Source: Pseudomonadota bacterium
Lineage (GTDB): Bacteria; Pseudomonadota; Gammaproteobacteria; Burkholderiales; Burkholderiaceae_C
Assembly: GCA_021845505.1 (NCBI GenBank)
Contig: JAJZVU010000030.1
Location: 1-42,568, forward strand
Length of the DNA stretch: 42,568 nucleotides
Direction: 5' to 3'
Part shown: positions 2,881 to 12,400 of the stretch, in pieces
How positions within the stretch are numbered: position 1 is the stretch's first letter
Layout of the letters: each line of letters starts with the position of its first letter
The notes under the pieces: generated by a model
What the model was told of the DNA's origin: nothing
The model's database searches: none
What the model saw: the letters and a program-made list of their open reading frames with translations, nothing else
Program-made: the position numbers and the translations under genes

Positions 2881-4053
2881 GTGGATGCGGCAGCGACACC
2901 CGACCACCAGGGGCTGCGCGTGGCGGTCGCGGCGCCGGCACGCGGCGAGGCCGACATCGCCCACGACCCGCGCTGGCAGTTCACCGCGTTCGTGCTGATG
3001 GCCTTGCAGGGGCTGGAAGGGGTGTCGCGCCTGTGGCTGGTGCACGAGGCGCCGCTGCGCCTGCCGCAGGGCCTGCAACTGGCCGACATGGGCGCGACCG
3101 CGGCCGAGCCCCACGAGCTGACCCATCGACTGGACTGGGTGATCGACATCGACGCCACCTTGCCGGCCGAGTGGTTGCGCCGACTGCGCAGGCTGGGCAC
3201 GCGGGTCGTCGAGGTGTTGCGCGGCAACCCCTATGCCGATGCCCTGGAGCCCGCGCTGTTCGGCCTTGCGCCGCGCTGGACATGGCCCGACGCGGCGATC
3301 GACGAAGTGTGGTGCGGCGCTGCGCTGCGCCGAACCTGCCAGCCGATGCTGCAGGCCGTGGCGCGCGCGCCGGTGTGGGAAATGCCTCGGCTGTGGTCGC
3401 CGTTGTTCGCCCAGCGCCGCGCACAGGCACTGGCCGGTGCCGGTCACCCGCTGGGTTTCGTCCCCGGGGTGCGGGCGGGCCAGCGCGGCTGGCGCGTGCT
3501 GGTGGCCGAAGCCAACGCATCGGTCGTGGGCAACTGCGTGGTGCCGATGCTGGCAACGGAGGCGGCGTACCGGGGCTGTGCGCAGGCCGTGGCTTGCATG
3601 ATGGTGCTGCATACCTTCGAGCGCAAGGAGCACCCGACTTTCAACGCCCTGGCCTGCAACCTCGACCTCACCCGCGACGGCCTGGCCAGCTACGAGCCGG
3701 GCCTGGCGGTGCTGGACGCCCTGGCCGCGCATCGCATGGACTGCGTCGTCGGCCACCAGTGGGAGCAGGAGATGCGGGACGACTGGTGCGAGGTGTTGTG
3801 GGCCGGCTACCCGCTGGTGCACAACTCGCAGGCGCTGCGAGAGCAGGGGCTGGGGTTGTCCTACGCCGACTTCGACGCCACCGATGCCGCTGCCGCGTTG
3901 CTGGCCGGCTGGCGCCTGCCGGCGTCGTTCTGGTCCGGGCAGCGCTGCCGCGCGCTGGCCTGGCTGGCCACGCTGCACCCGCTGGGCGAGTCGGTGCAGC
4001 GCAGCCTCGCGCAGCACCTGCGCCTGCCCGCGGCCCCGGCGGCCGCGCGATGA
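2881..4053 (+). CDS. DUF2827 family protein, divergent paralogue 2
   Basis: A GTG-started protein of 390 residues. It keeps the C-terminal signature GHQWEQ (from residue 291) and a GYPLVHNS block, so it belongs with the neighbouring DUF2827 proteins. It lacks the N-terminal W-x-NGI-x-QN motif found in both flanking paralogues, where it reads HDPRWQFTAFVLMAL instead. The SHQW serine is Gly, and the tyrosine-rich segment after the HN motif is also altered. This paralogue has probably changed substrate or become a non-catalytic partner. Its TGA overlaps the ATG of the third paralogue (ATGA), implying translational coupling. No membrane or secretion signals are visible. Confidence 0.72.
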   Translation: MDAAATPDHQGLRVAVAAPARGEADIAHDPRWQFTAFVLMALQGLEGVSRLWLVHEAPLRLPQGLQLADMGATAAEPHELTHRLDWVIDIDATLPAEWLRRLRRLGTRVVEVLRGNPYADALEPALFGLAPRWTWPDAAIDEVWCGAALRRTCQPMLQAVARAPVWEMPRLWSPLFAQRRAQALAGAGHPLGFVPGVRAGQRGWRVLVAEANASVVGNCVVPMLATEAAYRGCAQAVACMMVLHTFERKEHPTFNALACNLDLTRDGLASYEPGLAVLDALAAHRMDCVVGHQWEQEMRDDWCEVLWAGYPLVHNSQALREQGLGLSYADFDATDAAAALLAGWRLPASFWSGQRCRALAWLATLHPLGESVQRSLAQHLRLPAAPAAAR

Positions 4054-5180
4054 AGCGGTCGCTGCGCGTCGGGGTGACGCTGGCGGTGCGTGAGAGCGCG
4101 CAGTCCATCTGGGAGAACGGCATCTTCCAGAACTGCGCCTTCCTCGTGCAGTCGCTGCGGCACAGTCCGCTGGTGGGCCAGGCGGTGCTGTTGACCAATC
4201 GGCCGCAGGTCCCGCGGCTCAGCCCCGACCTGCTGCTGCAATCGAGCGGTCTTGCGCTGATGGGCCTCGACGAGGCCCTGCAGGCTCTGGACGTGGTGAT
4301 CGAGATGAGCGCGCAACTCGACACCGAGTGGGTGCAGGCGTTCGGCCTGCGCGGCGGGCGCCTGGTGTCGATGTACGTCGGCAACACCTACGTGATCGAC
4401 GTCGAGCGCGCGCTGTTCGCGCAGCCGCCGGCCGGCCTGTGGGATCGGCGCCGGCGCGACGCCGTGTGGACCTTGCCGCAATACCGGCGCAGCTGCCGCG
4501 CGTACCTGGAGGTCAACACCCGCTGCCCGGTGCGCGAACTGCCGCATCTGTGGAGCCCGTTCTTCGTGCAGCAGGCTTGCGCCGGACTGGCTGCCGGGGC
4601 GCGGTTCGGCTATGCCCCGGGGCGGGCGCGCTGGCGGCTGTGCGGCTTCGAGCCCAACCTGTGCATGGTGAAGACCGCGCTGATCCCGCTGCTGGCCGGC
4701 GAACTGGCCTACCGCCAGCGGCCCGGCTCGATCGAGGCGCTGCGCCTGTGCAACGCGCTGGCCTGGCGCGAGCACGAGGGGATCGCGGCGCTGGTGCGCG
4801 GCCTGGACGTGGTGCGCGACGGCGTCGCTCGCTTCGAGCCCCGCTACGCCACCTACGAGCTGATGGCGCATCACGGCGACTGCGTGATCTCCCATCAGTG
4901 GGAGAACGAGCAGAACTACCTGCACTACGAACTGCTGTGGGGCGGCTACCCGCTGGTGCACAACTGCGAACCCCTGCGCGAGCTGGGCTATTACTACCAG
5001 GGCTTCGATTGCCACGGCGCCGCCGCCGCGCTGCTGCGGGCGCTGGACGGGCACGACGCCGGGCTGGCCGAGCATCGCGGGCGCGCCGCGGCCTGGCTGC
5101 GCGGCCTGGACCCGGGCGACGCGCGCAACGTGGCCTGCTACACGGCGGAACTGCAGCGGCTGGTGGCGGGTGGTCGCTGA
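4050..5180 (+). CDS. DUF2827 family protein, putative GT-B glycosyltransferase (paralogue 3)
   Basis: A 376-residue protein starting MKRSLRVGVTLAV. The ATG at 4050 overlaps the previous stop. An in-frame upstream extension exists but is only an open shadow of the upstream genes. All family landmarks are present: WENGIFQN (residues 21-28), SHQWEN (281-286) and GGYPLVHN (GYPLVHN from 299) followed by a Y-rich LGYYYQGFD. It is more similar to paralogue 1 than to paralogue 2. The glycosyltransferase role is inferred from the GT-B-like C-terminal pattern. It is the last gene of the trio, and the next gene is convergent 44 bases downstream. Confidence 0.75.
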   Translation: MKRSLRVGVTLAVRESAQSIWENGIFQNCAFLVQSLRHSPLVGQAVLLTNRPQVPRLSPDLLLQSSGLALMGLDEALQALDVVIEMSAQLDTEWVQAFGLRGGRLVSMYVGNTYVIDVERALFAQPPAGLWDRRRRDAVWTLPQYRRSCRAYLEVNTRCPVRELPHLWSPFFVQQACAGLAAGARFGYAPGRARWRLCGFEPNLCMVKTALIPLLAGELAYRQRPGSIEALRLCNALAWREHEGIAALVRGLDVVRDGVARFEPRYATYELMAHHGDCVISHQWENEQNYLHYELLWGGYPLVHNCEPLRELGYYYQGFDCHGAAAALLRALDGHDAGLAEHRGRAAAWLRGLDPGDARNVACYTAELQRLVAGGR

Positions 5181-5224: not shown

Positions 5225-5872
5225 TCAGTCGTGCAGCAACGCCATCGCGGTGCCGAAGCCGACGAACAGGCCTCCGGTGACCCGGGCAAAGGCGCGCGCC
5301 ACGCCGACGCGGCCCAGCCAGCGGCCGAGCTGGGCGCCGCTGAGCGCGTAGACCAGGTACCAGCTGACTTCGATCACCGCGAAGCTGCCGAGCAGGGTGC
5401 CGAACTGCGGCAGCGCACGCGCCTGGGGATCGATGAACTGGGGCAGCAGCGCGGCGGCGAACAGGATGGCCTTGGGGTTGCTGCTGGCGACCGCGAAGCC
5501 GTTGCGGTACAGCCCCCACGCGCTGCGCTCGGCGGGCCGCGGGGCCGCGCCCGGCTCCAGCGGGGTTGCGGCCTGCGCGCCGGACCGGGCGGCAGAGCGC
5601 CAGGTGCGCACGCCCAGCCAGACCAGGTACGCGGCGCCGACCAGGCGCAAGGTGTCGAAAACCGCCGGCCAGGCCTGCAGCAACGCGCCGAGCCCGGCCG
5701 CGGAGATGCCCATCATCAGAAGCAGGGCGCTGAGGCAGCCGGCCATGGTCGCGGTCGAGCGGCGCAGTCCGTGGCGAGCGCCATGGCTCATCACCAGCAG
5801 CATGTTCGGGCCGGGGATCGCCGAAATCACTCCGACCGTCGCGATGTAGAGCAACCAGGTGTGCAGGCTCAT
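5225..5872 (-). CDS. LysE/RhtB family amino-acid exporter
   Basis: A 215-residue inner-membrane protein with about six hydrophobic segments. It starts [27 protein letters not shown], carrying the family's diagnostic PGPN near residue 21, followed by the typical [11 protein letters not shown] loop. Length matches the family (about 205-215). Relatives export amino acids such as homoserine, threonine or lysine; the substrate cannot be read from sequence. The gene is convergent with the DUF2827 operon and divergent from the copper operon, sharing a 138-base intergenic region. A perfect 7-base inverted repeat (5880-5886 / 5892-5898) lies just upstream of its start. Confidence 0.88.
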
Positions 5873-5934
5873 CGTTCAGGCGCCCGCCGCGCGGGCGCAA
5901 AGGCTCAAGTATGCCATGCCGCCGCCGCCGGTCC

Positions 5935-5948
5935 TTGATCCAGCTCAA
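5935..5948. promoter_or_regulatory. FNR/ANR-type binding box upstream of the copper operon
   Basis: TTGATCCAGCTCAA matches the FNR/Anr consensus TTGAT-N4-ATCAA at 9 of 10 defined positions. Its centre (5941.5) lies about 41 bases upstream of the start expected from the TATAAT at 5970-5975, which is class II activator geometry. This suggests activation of the copper operon at low oxygen. The site could also influence the divergent LysE gene. Confidence 0.5.
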
Positions 5949-5975
5949 ACCCGAAACACTACAATTAACTATAAT
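5935..5975 (+). promoter_or_regulatory. Copper operon promoter, two overlapping readings
   Basis: Reading A: TTGATC (5935-5940), a 19-base spacer and TACAAT (5960-5965), the long spacer typical of MerR-family activated promoters such as those of CueR. Reading B: a consensus TATAAT (5970-5975) without a recognisable -35, as expected when FNR bound at 5935-5948 substitutes for it. I did not find a clear CueR-type dyad within the spacer, which favours B slightly. Confidence 0.45.
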
Positions 5976-5994
5976 GTTGGGCACCGAGGCCGAT

Positions 5995-6022
5995 CCATGT
6001 CCATCCCTCCATGTCCATCCCT
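5995..6022 (+). repeat. 14-bp perfect tandem duplication over the merR start codon
   Basis: CCATGTCCATCCCT occurs at 5995-6008 and again at 6009-6022. Each copy carries an ATG. The ATG at 6011 is in frame with the regulator; that at 5997 opens a 15-codon reading frame ending at TGA 6042-6044, which overlaps a possible TTG start (6041-6043) of the regulator. Confidence 0.9.
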
Positions 6023-6523
6023 TCGCCCACCGAGCGCCCGTTGACCATCGGCCAGTTGGCGCGCCGCGCCGAGCTGGCCCCCGAGACCTTGCGCCACTAC
6101 GAACGCCTGGGGCTGGTCGAGCCGAGCCGGCGCACCGACTCCAACTACCGGCTGTACGACGCGGAGGCGGTGCGCAGGCTGCATTTCATCCGGCGGGCGC
6201 AGTCGCTGGGATTCTCGCTGCCGGAGATCCGCCAGCTGCTCGGGTTGCACGCCCAGGGCGCCGGCGACATGGCGCAGGTGCGCGCCATCGCCGAGCAGCG
6301 CCTGCGGCAGATCGAGCAGCGCATCGCCGACCTGCGCAGCCTGCGCGCGGGACTGGAGCAATTGCTGCAGTCCTGCCCCGGGCACGGCGCGCTGGCCGAC
6401 TGCCCGATCCTGGCCGCGTTGTGCGGGCAGGAAGCCGCGTCCGCCGCATCCGCGCAGCCCGCGGAGCCGGATGCCCCCGCGGGCGCGGGCAGCGGCGCGC
6501 GGCTCGCCGGGGCTGCGCCATGA
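6011..6523 (+). CDS. cueR: MerR-family regulator, CueR-like copper sensor
   Basis: A 170-residue cytoplasmic activator. The N-terminal winged helix begins [25 protein letters not shown], followed by [12 protein letters not shown], a long dimerisation helix and a metal loop [14 protein letters not shown]. CueR has C-x7-C; here the spacing is C-x8-C. The position of the extra Cys found in MerR, ZntR and PbrR is not Cys, which fits a monovalent metal ion. The Ala/Gly-rich tail after residue ~145 is longer than usual. The stop overlaps the copA start (ATGA), so regulator and pump are co-transcribed, unlike E. coli where they are unlinked. A TTG at 6041 would give a protein of standard MerR length. 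Cu(I) sensing is inferred from context and loop. Confidence 0.78.
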
Positions 6524-9405
6524 GCGTGCCGCTGCCCGGTGCGTTGCCTCGCCAGCCGGCGCCGAGCGGCGAGGGCGAGCGCTGCGAGCTCGCGCTGGAT
6601 GTGGACGGCATGACCTGCGCGTCCTGCAGCTCGCGTGTCGAGGCGGCCCTGAACGCGCTGCCCGGGGTGCGCGCGAGCGTGAACCTGGCCAGCGAGCGCG
6701 CCCAGGTGCGTTTCGACCCCGCGCAGGCCGATGCCCGCGCGGTGGTCGACGCGGTGGCCGCCAGCGGGTACCAGGCTCGCACCGCCGACGTGGTGCTCGA
6801 CGTCGGGGGCATGACCTGCGCTTCGTGCGTGTCCCGGGTCGAGGGCGCGCTGCGCCGGCTGCCCGGGGTGGTGCAGGCCGATGTGAACCTGGCCGCGGAA
6901 AGCGCCAGCGTGCGCTTCGTTCCCGCCAGCGTGCAGCCCCAGGCCTTGCTCGACGCCGTGCAGGCGGCCGGCTACACCGTCAGGCTGCGCGACCCCGACG
7001 TCGTGCGCGCGGCCGCCGACTCCGAGGGGCACAAGCAACGCCAGCTGGCGGCGATGCGGCGCGATGTGGTCATCGCGCTGGCGGCCGCCGGCGGCGTGCT
7101 GGTGCTGGCGATGGGGGGCATGTTCTGGCCGCGCGCGCGCCAGGCGCTCGACGCGCTGGCGCCGTGGCCCCGGCTGGGCGACTGGTTGCAGGCCGTGCTG
7201 GCCAGCGTGGTGGTGCTGGGCCCCGGGCGCAGGTTCTTCCGCAGCGGCTGGATCGCCTACCGGCACCTGTCGCCGGACATGAATTCCCTGGTGGCCAGCG
7301 GCGCCGGCGTGGCGTGGCTGTTCAGCATGGTGGTGCTGCTGGCGCCGCAATGGTTTCCCCCCCATTCCACGCAGGTCTATTTCGACTCGGCGGCCGTGGT
7401 GATCGCCGCGGTGCTGCTGGGCAAGTACCTGGAGGAACTGGCCAAGGGGCGGGCATCGCAGGCGATCCGCGCGCTGGCCCACCTGCAGGCGCACACCGCG
7501 CGGCTGCGCACCGCGCAAGGCGAGCAGGAAGTGCCCATCGGCCAGGTGCGGCGCGACGACGAGGTCGTCGTGCGGCCCGGCGAGAGGCTGCCGGTCGACG
7601 GCCTGGTGCTGCAGGGCGAGTCGCATGTGGACGAGTCGATGTTGAGCGGCGAGCCGATCCCGGTCGACAAGCGCGCGGGCAGCCAGGTGCGCGCCGGGAC
7701 CGTGAACCAGCAGGGCCTGCTGGTCGTGCGCGCGACGTCGGTGGGCTCCGACACGGTGTTGGCGCAGATCATCCGGCTGGTCGAACAGGCGCAAGGCGGC
7801 AAGCTGCCCATCCAGGGCCTGGCCGACCGCGTGGTGCGGGTGTTCACTCCGGCGGTGCTGGCGGTCGCGCTGGCAAGCTTCGCGCTGTGGATGTGGCTGG
7901 CCCCGGCGCCCGCGCTGGGGCATGCCCTGCTGGCCGCGGTGGCGGTGCTGGTCGTCGCCTGCCCCTGCGCGATGGGGCTGGCCACGCCGGCGGCGATCAT
8001 GGTGGGAACCGGGCGCGCCGCCGAGTTCGGCGTGCTGTTCCGCAAGGGCGAGGCGCTGGAGGCGCTGTCGCGGGTCGATACCGTGCTGCTCGACAAGACC
8101 GGCACGCTGACCCGCGGCAAGCCGCAACTGGGCACGCTGGTGGCGGCGCAAGGGGTCGATGAACGCCAGCTGCTCGGCTGGGCGGCGTCGGTGGAGGCCG
8201 CGTCGGAGCATCCGCTGGCGCGGGCGGTGGTCGCCGCGGCCGCACAGGCCGGGGTCGAAGGGGCGCCGGTCGAGGCCTTCCAGGCGCGCGCCGGCCACGG
8301 CGCGCAGGCGCTGGTGCAAGGGGTTCCGGTCGCGCTGGGCACGCGTCGCTACCTGGAGTCGCTGGGCGTGCCGTGCGACGACCTGCTGGCCGAGGGGGAA
8401 GCGCTGCAGCGCGAGGGCGCCACCGTGGTGTTCGTCGCGCGCGACGGGCAGGCCGCGGGGGTGCTGGGGATCTCCGATCCGGCACGCGCCGAGGCCGCGG
8501 CGGTGGTGGCGGGATTGAAGGCGCTGGGAATCGAGGTGCAACTGGTCAGCGGGGACAGCGAGCGCGCGGCGCGCGCGCTGGGCTCGCAGGTCGGCATCTC
8601 CGAGGTGCACGCCGAGGTGCTGCCGCAAGGCAAGGCCGAGGTGGTGCGCGCGCTGCAGTCCCGCGGCCGACGGGTGCTGTTCGTCGGCGACGGCATCAAC
8701 GATGCGCCGGCGCTGGCGCAGGCCGACGTCGGCATGGCGCTGGCCAGCGGCACGGACATCGCGATGGAGGCGGCCGACGTGACCCTGACCCGCGGCGATC
8801 TGGGTGGGGTCATCGGAGCGCTGCAGGCGGCGGCCCACACCATGCGCACCATCCGCGGCAACCTGTTCTGGGCCTTCGGCTACAACGTGCTGCTGATCCC
8901 GCTCGCGGCCGGCGTCGGCGCGCCGTGGGACCTGCAGCTCAGCCCCATGCTGGCGGCGATCGCGATGGGGCTGTCGTCGGTGTTCGTGCTGGGCAACAGC
9001 CTGCGGCTGCGGCGCATGCATGCCTGGAGCGCCGGTGCGGCAGCCGAGGCGGCCGCACAGGGGCCGCTCGCCCGGCCGACCCCGCCGGCCGGCGGGGCCG
9101 ATGGCGGCCCCCCAGTCGAAGGCCCCCCGGTCGGCGGCCCGGAGGCCCCATCCCCGAGATCCTCTTCCCCATCACCGTCAAGGAGACCCGCGATGACCGC
9201 AACCCGCAACCTGATGATCGAAGGCATGAGCTGCCAGCATTGCGTGGCCAGCGTCACCAAGGCGCTGCAGGCGGTGCCGGGAGTGCAGTCGGCCCAGGTC
9301 AGCCTGGACGAGGCGCGCGCGCAGGTCAGCGGCGACGCGCCGTTGCCGGCGCTGCTCGAGGCGGTGCAGCGAGCGGGCTACACGGCCACGCCCGACGACG
9401 CCTGA
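6520..9405 (+). CDS. copA: Cu(I)-exporting P1B-type ATPase CopA, in frame with a C-terminal CopZ domain
   Basis: An inner-membrane ATPase that pumps Cu(I) out of the cytoplasm. Two N-terminal heavy-metal domains carry GMTCASC (CXXC Cys34/37 and Cys100/103). These are followed by transmembrane helices, the actuator loop ([10 protein letters not shown]), the CPC ion site (481-483), the phosphorylated Asp in DKTGTLT (D525), [12 protein letters not shown] (from 723) and the C-terminal YN and MGLSS membrane motifs of Cu(I) pumps. The ATPase proper ends near residue 840. No stop follows: a Pro/Gly/Ser-rich linker (about 842-891) leads in frame into a complete third metal domain (GMSCQHC). The polypeptide can therefore be 961 residues, with CopZ fused, although copZ also has its own ribosome site at 9180. 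Confidence 0.9.
9180..9185 (+). promoter_or_regulatory. Internal Shine-Dalgarno for copZ
   Basis: AAGGAG lies 7 bases before the ATG at 9193, inside the open copA frame. It is the strongest ribosome binding site I noted in the window, and it indicates separate translation of the 70-residue copper chaperone. Confidence 0.75.
9193..9405 (+). CDS. copZ: CopZ-like copper chaperone, nested in frame at the 3' end of copA
   Basis: A 70-residue heavy-metal-associated domain. It has the beta-alpha-beta-beta-alpha-beta length and the metal site GMSCQHC near residues 11-17, which binds Cu(I) through the two cysteines. It ends [10 protein letters not shown]. It shares the copA frame, so it can appear both as free CopZ and as the C-terminal domain of CopA. 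Family knowledge: CopZ delivers Cu(I) to the N-terminal domains of CopA and to the CueR-type regulator. The nesting recalls E. coli, where CopA(Z) arises from copA by frameshifting, but here it would come from an internal start. Confidence 0.8.
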
Positions 9406-9424
9406 GGCCCGACGACGCCTGAGG
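9391..9424. repeat. 17-bp perfect tandem duplication spanning the copA/copZ stop codon
   Basis: CCCGACGACGCCTGAGG is present at 9391-9407 and at 9408-9424. The first copy contains the TGA stop. A further degenerate piece (CCTGGCGACGCC) follows before the convergent gene's stop at 9440. The 34-base gap between the two genes is almost entirely this repeat. Confidence 0.9.
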
Positions 9425-9439
9425 CCTGGCGACGCCGCT

Positions 9440-12400
9440 TCAGCTCGCCGCCGGCTGCAGCTGGAACACCGTTCCCGGCGCGCCCTGCACGGTCAGCGCC
9501 CAGAACTGCTCGCGCACTTCGTCGCTGGCCATGTGCAGCTCGAGTTCGAGCCCCGGGCGCGCCAGCGGCTCGTCGAGCCAGCGCCTGACCAGCGCATACA
9601 GCTCGGCGTGGCGCTGCACCAGTTGCTCGAACTGCGGGAGGTGGCGCCAGCGACCGGCATGATGCTGGCACCACAGGCCCAGCGCGCAGCGCGCGTGGGC
9701 ATCGGGCTCGCGCAACGCGGCCTCGGCGTCGGACTCGAGGGCGCCTTGCAGCAACTGCCTGAGCATCGTGCCCAGCGACACGATGGCCTCGATGCCGTCG
9801 TGGCCGAGCACGCTGCCCTTGCCCAGGTCGGCGGTCCAGCCCAGGCGCTGCTGCCACTCGGCGATCCACCCGGGCAGTTGCAGCGCCGGCATCGGGCGGG
9901 CGATCGCGTAACCCTGCAGGTGGTTGCAGCCCATGGCCACCAGCACCCGCGCCAGTTCCGGGGTCTCGACCCCTTCGGCGACGACCCGCACGCCCATCAG
10001 CTGGGCGGTGCGCAGGATGCCGTAGGCGATGCTCAGGTCGCGCGCATCGTGCAGCAGGTCCTTGACGAAGCGACGTTCGATTTTCAGCGTGGAAACGGCC
10101 AGCGCCTGCAGGTGGGTCAACGAGGCGCTTCCGGTGCCGAAATCGTCCAGGCTGACCTGCACGCCCAGCGCGTGGCAATGCTCGATGCGCCGGCGCGTGG
10201 CGTCGCCATCGAGCAGCGCGCCGTGCTCGGTCAGCTCCAGTGTGAGGCTGGACGGCCGCATGCGCGGATGACGGCCCAGCAGTTCGCGCACGTCCTCGAG
10301 GAAGGTGGGCCCGAGGAAGTGCCGCGGACTGATGTTGACACTCATGTGCAGGTCCAGCCCGCCGGCATGCCAGCGTTCCACCCATTGCGCGGCCTGTTCC
10401 ATCACCCAGCGGCCGAGCGCGACGGCCAGCCGAGGCTCGTCCAGCACATGCTCGAAGGCTCCCGCGGTGTGCAGCCTGCCGTGCTCGTCGACCAGCCGCA
10501 GCAGGCCTTCGACATGGGCGATCGCGGGCGGCCCGCCGCGCTGCCGGGGAACGCTGAGGATGGGCTGCACGTGCAACTGCAGCCGTCCCGCGGCGAGCGC
10601 GCCCTCGAGGGCGCTGAGCCAGCCCTGGCGCGCCTCGACCTCGGCCTGCATGGTCTGGTCGAACACGCAGGCCTGGTTGCGGCCGCGCGACTTGGCCGCA
10701 TACAGCGCGATGTCCGCCTGGCGCAGCAGGGTCTGCGCATCCTCGCGCTGGCCGCGCAGCGCCAGCCCGAGCGACAGCCGGGCCGACAGCAACTGCCCCT
10801 CGACCTCGATCGGCGCGCGCAGCGCGGCCATCACGCGCTCGGCGATGCGCTGGGTGCGCTGGGGGTCCTTGCCCACCTGCAGCAGCAGCGCGAACTCGTC
10901 GCCGCCGATGCGCGCCAGGATGTCGGCGCCGCGGCCCTGGCGCGACTGCCGCGACAGCCGCAGCGCGCCGCGCAGCCGGGTGGCCACCTCGACCAGCAAC
11001 GCGTCGCCGGCCGCGTGACCGAAGCGGTCGTTGATGGTCTTGAAGTCATCGAGGTCGGCGATTCCCAGCGCCACGTCCTGGCGCTGCTCGAGGGTCTCGG
11101 CGAGCAGTTTCTCGAAGGCGCCGCGGTTGCTCAGCCCGGTCAGCGAGTCGCGCTCGGCCAGCTCGCGGATCTGCTGTTCCTGCAGTTTGCGCTCGGTCAC
11201 GTCCTGGATGGTCCACAACGCGCCCGCCGAGCGACCGCCGGGATCGAGCAGCGGGGTGTAGTGCCGCAGCAGGATGCGACCGTCGTTCAACCACACCTCG
11301 TCGACCGCGGCCTGGTGCTCGCGGAACAGGATCTTCACCTGCTTGAGCGCATCCTGGCCGCCGGCGTGCAAATCGGCGATCAGCTCCCATACCGCGCGCC
11401 AGGATTGCCCGATGAGATCGCGCGGCGACTGGGTCTGGCGGGTCATGCGGACAAAGCCCAGGCTGCAGTACTGGACGATCCCCATCGCGTCGAACACGAT
11501 CAAGCCACCGGGCAGGTTGTCCAGGATCTGCGCGAACAGCGCCGAATCCTTGCGCTGCGCCTGCTGGGCCTGCTCGCTTTCCTGCAGCAAGTTGCGCGCC
11601 TGGCCCACCCATTCGCGCTGCATCCTCAACTCGCGCCGCAGCAGCCACACCAGTACCAGGGCCAGCAGCAGCGCGGCCCCCAGCGGCATGCTGACCCGCC
11701 GCCACCAGTCCCGCGCCACGATGGAGCGCGGAGTCACGACAAAGGCCTGCAGCCCGGAGCTGCCCAGCGGGTACAGCGCGCCGATGTAGGCTTCGGCGGG
11801 CGCGGCGGCGCCGCCCAGCGCCGATGGCGCGCCGCGCAGCAGCAGTTGCGGATGCGGTCGGGTGAAATAGCCCGCCAGCTGCGTGCCCCGCGGCAGCGGC
11901 CAGCGTCCCAGCAGATAGCCCTCGGAGTCGGCCAGCCCGAGCACCAGGCCCGAGCGCTCGCTGCCTTGCAGCAGCGCGCGGTAGAGGGCGTTTTCCAGCT
12001 GCTGGTCCAGAAAGCCCGAGAGCACGAAGCCCGGCTGCCCGCTGCGCGTCGCCTGCGCCCAGGCCATCGGAAGCCACAGCCGCGCGCTGCCGGGTCGCGC
12101 CACGGCGGGGCCGAGTTGCAGCGAACCCGGATGGGCGCGCGCGAGTTGCTGTACCGAGCGCAGTGCCGCGGGCGCAGGCAGGGCCTGCGGCTGCGTGCCG
12201 GCCTGCGGCTGTTGCGCGACCGCGTCGCCTCGCCAGTCCAGCACCAGCAATTGCGCGACAGCCGGTTCGGTGCGGCAGAAATCCGCCAGCGCCTGCTGCA
12301 GCCCGCCGGGGCTGGTGAGCCAGCCCCGCGAATCGATCTGCGCCGCCAGGAACGCCAGGCCCCTGGCGTAACGGGTCAGGTGGTTCTGAACCGCGGCTTG

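Follow-up and report, generated by a model that had tools for sequence, protein, structure and literature searches.

The copper ATPase gene copA of Escherichia coli has a frameshift site at the end of the first metal-binding domain, and the frameshift releases the N-terminal domain. The ATPase and a copper chaperone in free form both come from this single gene (PMC9548414; PMC7558416), and the frameshifting that yields CopZ depends on a slippery sequence and a pseudoknot, together with an effect of the nascent chain (PMC7558416). The chaperone is typically encoded by a separate gene, unlike in the E. coli frameshift (PMC10187127), and in Cupriavidus metallidurans cupC is on the other strand (PMC10304878). 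In phage endolysins, two in-frame open reading frames may share a stop codon, the shorter frame having its own ribosome-binding site (PMC9430671). The gene described here is a copA of a Burkholderiales bacterium in which copZ is fused in frame to the 3′ end and retains a Shine-Dalgarno sequence and start codon of its own. It is found on contig JAJZVU010000030.1 (assembly GCA_021845505.1), in a stretch of 42,568 nucleotides that was analysed as a whole (the window). The sequence data indicate that this one gene probably yields two proteins by internal initiation, a CopA–CopZ fusion and a free CopZ.

The initial annotation had noted that the copA frame runs into copZ with no intervening stop. 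Translation of positions 6520–9405 bears this out: the frame is unbroken, has a single terminal stop and encodes 961 residues. The product has, in order, two N-terminal metal-binding domains, a Cu(I) P-type ATPase, a linker rich in Ala, Pro and Ser, and a C-terminal CopZ domain whose CxxC motif is CQHC. The ATPase passes TIGR01511, the model for Cu-translocating P-type ATPases (574.7 bits, cut-off 397), which assigns it to the Cu(I) P1B-type enzymes, and is below the cut-off of PRK10671 (NF007952), the model for the E. coli CopA equivalog (713.5 bits, cut-off 1316). By these scores, the ATPase is of the CopA type and is not the E. coli equivalog. The C-terminal domain alone passes the CopZ model NF047957 (91.6 bits, cut-off 85), whereas the N-terminal domains score 57 and 64.2 bits. 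Because of this difference in model score, the C-terminal domain is assigned to the CopZ class and is not regarded as a copy of the N-terminal domains of the ATPase. The structure model of the fusion is poor overall (mean 65.0, predicted template modelling score 0.37), and residues 771–892, which include the end of the core, score below 50. In this same poor model the predicted local distance difference test score (pLDDT) of the linker is very low, about 25–30 per block, which suggests that the linker is disordered.

The initial annotation also pointed to the motif AAGGAG (9180–9185), and it is indeed situated 7 nucleotides ahead of the in-frame ATG at 9193, where it overlaps the codons AGG AGA (9181–9186). 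Translation from ATG 9193 alone gives a CopZ of 70 residues. ATG 9193 is the only one of the 23 ATGs in the stop-to-stop frame to carry an upstream Shine-Dalgarno sequence this strong; when ATG, GTG and TTG codons are taken together, 2 of 107 do, ATG 9193 included. Three other genes subjected to the same test gave 2/24, 1/20 and 2/23 ATGs. copA itself starts with an ATG that overlaps the TGA ending the MerR-family gene upstream (ATGA, 6520–6523). A TGA in the +1 frame likewise overlaps the CopZ start (ATGA or GTGA), both at 9193–9196 and in 12 more of the 17 fused genes of the genus described below. This is probably a by-product of the second codon, though it resembles a stop-start overlap.

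Within the genus, 28 genomes were sampled and the junction is readable in 23. The contig ends before the junction in three others (G026, G007 and G012) and no orthologue was found in two (G014 and G023); these five are outside the counts. ATPase and CopZ are in one stop-free frame in 17 of the 23 readable genomes, the window's included, and a stop precedes copZ in the other six, three of which have copZ in another frame. The initial annotation had allowed that the open junction might be an indel error, or that relatives might all have separate genes. An assembly or base error is ruled out because 16 other congeners, with core identities of 65–78%, are equally open, and the 17 fused genes found beside six with a stop dispose of the second objection. 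In the six separate genomes the ATPase gene is followed, at the same place, by a stop, a short spacer, a ribosome-binding site, an ATG and copZ, and this arrangement is presumed to be the older state. These congeners favour the earlier suggestion that the linker is a former intergenic region, but the trees described below leave the ancestral state in the genus unsettled.

The distance from ATPase core to CopZ takes 14 distinct lengths in 16 fused genes, and every one is a multiple of three and free of stops (G001, which belongs to the other clade, is left out of this set). The distance is not a multiple of three in three of the six separate genes. The linker seems free to change in length only by whole codons, which is what a useful long protein would lead one to expect. 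The G001 gene (locus L018) is fused inside an otherwise separate copA/copZ clade and has a weaker Shine-Dalgarno motif, AGGA; it may represent a separate fusion or the leftover of an older one.

The internal start is conserved. GGAG or AGGA is present 4–8 nucleotides before an ATG (once a GTG) in 27 of the 30 fused genes examined, and in 16 of the 17 in the genus. Thus the locus has the properties of a gene with an in-frame internal start: a start with its own Shine-Dalgarno sequence, a shared stop, and conservation in relatives. Motifs in the genus, which lie 7–8 nucleotides before the CopZ start, are AGGAG in 13 genes, GGAG in two and AGGA in one; the start codon in these 16 genes is ATG in 15 and GTG in G017. 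In this last gene (locus L158) GGAG is retained, and start function seems to be preserved across the codon change.

Since the site lies inside a translated frame, its Shine-Dalgarno sequence has to be written as codons. Of the 17 fused genus genes, 14 have AGG at −12 and 14 have AGT at −9. These codons are rare here: AGG accounts for 20 of 714 Arg codons, AGT for 17 of 440 Ser codons, and AGA for none. Within the ATPase cores of 14 genes, the largest AGG share is 29% (31 conserved Arg columns) and the largest AGT share is 36% (16 Ser columns); fourfold third-position identity in the core averages 0.63 (0.45–0.86). In a recoding test, amino acids were held fixed, codons were drawn according to the usage of each gene, and an equally strong Shine-Dalgarno sequence was sought. 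The resulting p is below 0.05 in 15 of the 17 genus genes, the others being G001 (0.14) and G024 (1.0).

RNA folding points in the same direction. The predicted fold from −25 to +20 of the CopZ start is −2.3 to −8.4 kcal/mol; for the other in-frame ATGs the average per gene is about −16 to −19. The fold at the CopZ start is weaker than the mean of the other in-frame ATGs in 17 of 17 genes, and no other ATG is equally open in 16 of the 17, though two genes had only three other ATGs. The second N-terminal HMA domain served as a control. There, GGAG or AGGA before a start codon was found in none of 10 genes, two of which have no start codon at that place. Twelve genes were run in this control; L022 and L024 are not counted, as a single N-terminal motif was recognised in each, and the one ATG with a Shine-Dalgarno-like motif that L022 showed is probably the true copA start. 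A 16S rRNA end with CCTCC was found in four of five congeners. The anatomy of the gene, its conservation and the indications that frame and internal start are both under selection are observed features of these sequences.

The CopZ complement of the genomes is also informative. In the 23 readable genomes, the best match to the CopZ model is a frame of 72–106 residues in the six separate genomes and the copA frame in the 17 fused ones, and it exceeds the cut-off of 85 in 21 of the 23. No second CopZ above the model cut-off was found in the 17 fused genomes, and 12 of these had no CopZ-model match in any frame under 150 residues. The window's genome yielded four HMA domains, three of them in the 6520–9405 frame and one in another ATPase. 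The internal start would be the only evident source of free CopZ in this genome, if free CopZ is needed there.

Fused genes are also found outside the genus. In an order sample of 399 genomes (E 1e-45), the stretch from the ATPase through the end of CopZ is stop-free in 12 genomes besides the window's and is interrupted by stops in 16. A family search with the threshold at E 1e-60 proved too strict (8 of 299 genomes) and contributed one gene, G152. Internal Shine-Dalgarno sequence and ATG are present in 11 of the 13 further fused genes (G399, G355, G152, G341, G691, G377, G584, G468, G430, G504 and G387); in G341 the internal start precedes the second of two domains. In a class sample of 369 genomes (E 1e-45) there was no fused gene besides the window's (G000) among the matches listed, in which G764, G829 and G993 reach the CopZ end with stops inside. 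A scan of genome contigs gave at least 80 loci, and no fused tail was present in those examined, core matches ending before residue 790 being skipped. The nearest plasmid record, from Acidithiobacillus caldus, carries the ATPase together with a DUF302 gene and, as a separate gene, a small cation transporter.

A 47-row tree of ATPase cores requires five changes between the fused and separate states, at least four of them forced by well-supported branches. An earlier tree of 35 rows, in which the fused genes from beyond the genus were only partly represented, requires four, three of them so forced; its 14 rows in the window's clade are fused without exception. G008 and G017, which are fragments, are in neither tree, and G026 is unlabelled in the smaller tree and absent from the larger. 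Because the rows were chosen, long branches meet, and gains are indistinguishable from losses, the trees point to recurrent change between the fused and separate states and give neither the number of gains nor the ancestral state inside the genus.

The following scheme is proposed. Ribosomes that start at 6520 would read across the former copA–copZ junction and produce a 961-residue Cu(I) ATPase with a tethered CopZ. Other ribosomes would bind AAGGAG, start at ATG 9193 and produce a free 70-residue CopZ able to shuttle Cu(I). The most likely origin of the fusion is that two adjacent genes, copA and copZ, lost the stop that separated them, with the old copZ ribosome-binding site retained because free CopZ is still needed. 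The initial annotation had proposed just such a pair of products from internal initiation, and the proposal is supported by the frame-preserving linkers, the conservation of a Shine-Dalgarno sequence spelled in rare codons, the weak structure at the start and the finding of no second CopZ above the cut-off. The production of both proteins, their ratio, and the roles of tethered and free CopZ are inferred; both products look to be under selection.

The main rival to this scheme is a plain fusion in which the Shine-Dalgarno sequence and ATG are a relic. It agrees with the preserved frame, which indicates that the fusion is read, with the three fused genes that have no internal start (G024, G648 and G563), and with the known occurrence of C-terminal metal-binding domains on copper ATPases such as that of Archaeoglobus CopA. 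A relic should decay, however, and the AGG and AGT codons each persist in 14 of 17 genes, to be set against the fourfold third-position identity of the core; recoding makes chance unlikely in 15 of 17, and the fused genomes show no second CopZ above the cut-off. A relic is thus considered improbable. The converse, that free CopZ alone matters and that the read-through is accidental and harmless, a stop having been lost, could explain the retention of the internal start next to a linker of diverging length and sequence. A useless fusion should show a stop or a change of frame somewhere, yet the many linker lengths are stop-free multiples of three without exception, and an accident of this kind is very unlikely.

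Free CopZ might also come from proteolysis in the linker, or from a transcript that starts inside the gene, instead of from initiation on the full mRNA. The linker has no predicted structure (in the poor model), and E. coli reportedly combines differential transcript formation with frameshifting, to judge by the title of Drees 2017. Either route leaves the conserved rare codons, the 7-nucleotide spacing and the start codon unexplained, and no sigma70-like promoter match was found at 5800–9600 by a scan that is weak, covers one promoter type and found none for the operon either. Only a slight chance is given to these routes. Lastly, AGG AGA or AGG AGT together with the Shine-Dalgarno sequence could form a frameshift or pause signal that yields a truncated CopA, as in prfB. 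Reading in the +1 frame ends at a stop after four codons in 13 of 17 genes; G008 and G017 have a stop in the −1 frame as well, after three. Yet the 7-nucleotide spacing suits initiation, the start codon itself is kept, and four of the 17 genes have no early +1 stop. Moreover, perfect X XXY YYZ heptamers occur in the window's frame only at codons 197, 232, 862 and 867, after which a −1 stop is not found or comes 97–102 codons on. A signal of this type is hardly credible. A copA frameshift of the E. coli type was considered separately and rejected: there is no perfect slippery heptamer between the N-terminal metal-binding domains and no near −1 stop, pseudoknots not having been sought.

Several points count against the proposed scheme. 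The recoding p-values are non-independent across related genomes, and many genomes are incomplete. The end of 16S rRNA was sought and not found in the window's own fragmented genome (G000) or in G010. In the fused gene of G024 (locus L028) both GGAG and ATG are missing from their usual position, which leaves a GTG without a Shine-Dalgarno sequence or an ATG 22 residues before the HMA motif. Two CopZ domains, those of G015 (84.7 bits) and G024 (79.9 bits), fall under the cut-off, and five of the 17 fused genomes (G001, G009, G006, G016 and G022) have weaker matches of 35–61 bits in frames of 84–123 amino acids, which could represent small proteins of other kinds that bind metal. Beyond the genus, recoding gives values below 0.05 in only five of the 11 genes (G152, G377, G468, G504 and G387), and for G399 and G355 a Shine-Dalgarno sequence tends to follow from the amino acids alone. 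L238 (G648) and L239 (G563) have two or three HMA domains in the fused tail and no internal Shine-Dalgarno sequence and start; these fusions seem to have given up the free chaperone. As a separate observation, no other CopZ-model match above the cut-off was found in G024, which makes L028 a natural test case.

Features of the locus are collected in Table 1. The regulator upstream of copA is below the cut-off of the NCBIfam CueR model TIGR02044 (117.3 bits, cut-off 147.4), and can be assigned to the MerR family only. Two tandem DUF2827 proteins are encoded further upstream, at 2881–5180 on the + strand (E 5.9e-75 and 1.5e-126; the second was scanned from 4050).

Table 1. Coordinates of the copA-copZ gene, its parts and the adjoining regulator gene in the window
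Feature	Position	Strand	Basis
MerR-family regulator, CueR-like	6011..6523	+	Pfam MerR and MerR-DNA-bind; open reading frame list; directly upstream of copA
copA-copZ fused frame, 961 residues	6520..9405	+	Translation without internal stop; TIGR01511
N-terminal metal-binding domain 1 (GMTCASC)	6592..6777	+	HMA match; CopZ model 55.7–57 bits, cut-off 85
N-terminal metal-binding domain 2 (GMTCASC)	6793..6981	+	HMA match; CopZ model 63–64.2 bits, cut-off 85
P1B-type ATPase core, residues 236–831	7225..9012	+	TIGR01511 stretch 236–831
Linker from core to CopZ, 58 codons, probably flexible	9019..9192	+	Junction comparison with relatives; very low pLDDT
Internal Shine-Dalgarno AAGGAG over rare codons AGG AGA	9180..9185	+	7 nucleotides before ATG 9193; conserved in relatives
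Internal in-frame ATG and CopZ domain, 70 residues if alone	9193..9405	+	NF047957, 91.6 bits; HMA, E 5.2e-19

If the scheme is correct, it represents a second and mechanistically different route to a pump and a chaperone from one gene, beside E. coli frameshifting, and it suggests that there is strong pressure to keep a free chaperone alongside the pump. We lean, with some reserve, towards a wider view, in which CopA–CopZ fusions arise repeatedly in the order by stop loss, and both products are then held by selection, which acts on the frame for the tethered chaperone and on an internal ribosome-binding site of rare codons for the free one. This would be convergent with E. coli frameshifting, and how strong the two starts are relative to each other would determine how much free CopZ is made per pump. 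One genus offers natural experiments in the form of fused genes with a start, fused genes without one, and separate genes. Gene calling by the longest frame only would miss the small protein.

No CopA–CopZ fusion with an internal start was found in a search of the open-access literature, most subscription papers being outside its reach; the principle is already known, and this use of it and its recurrence appear, as far as that search extends, to be new. The two-polypeptide endolysins likewise have two in-frame open reading frames, a shared stop and a ribosome-binding site for the shorter product, but here a membrane pump and a soluble chaperone are joined, seemingly from two adjacent genes. 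CopA of Archaeoglobus fulgidus also has a metal-binding domain after the last transmembrane helix; the domain here is of the CopZ class by model score, and we know of no internal start reported for copper ATPases with C-terminal metal-binding domains. The operonic copA–copZ pairs of the six congeners have the same proteins in the same order and a ribosome-binding site before copZ, and differ in having a stop where this gene has a continuous frame. The E. coli copA gene is alike in providing both pump and free chaperone, but does so through the frameshifting described above, whereas here it is a C-terminal CopZ that has a ribosome-binding site and start of its own.
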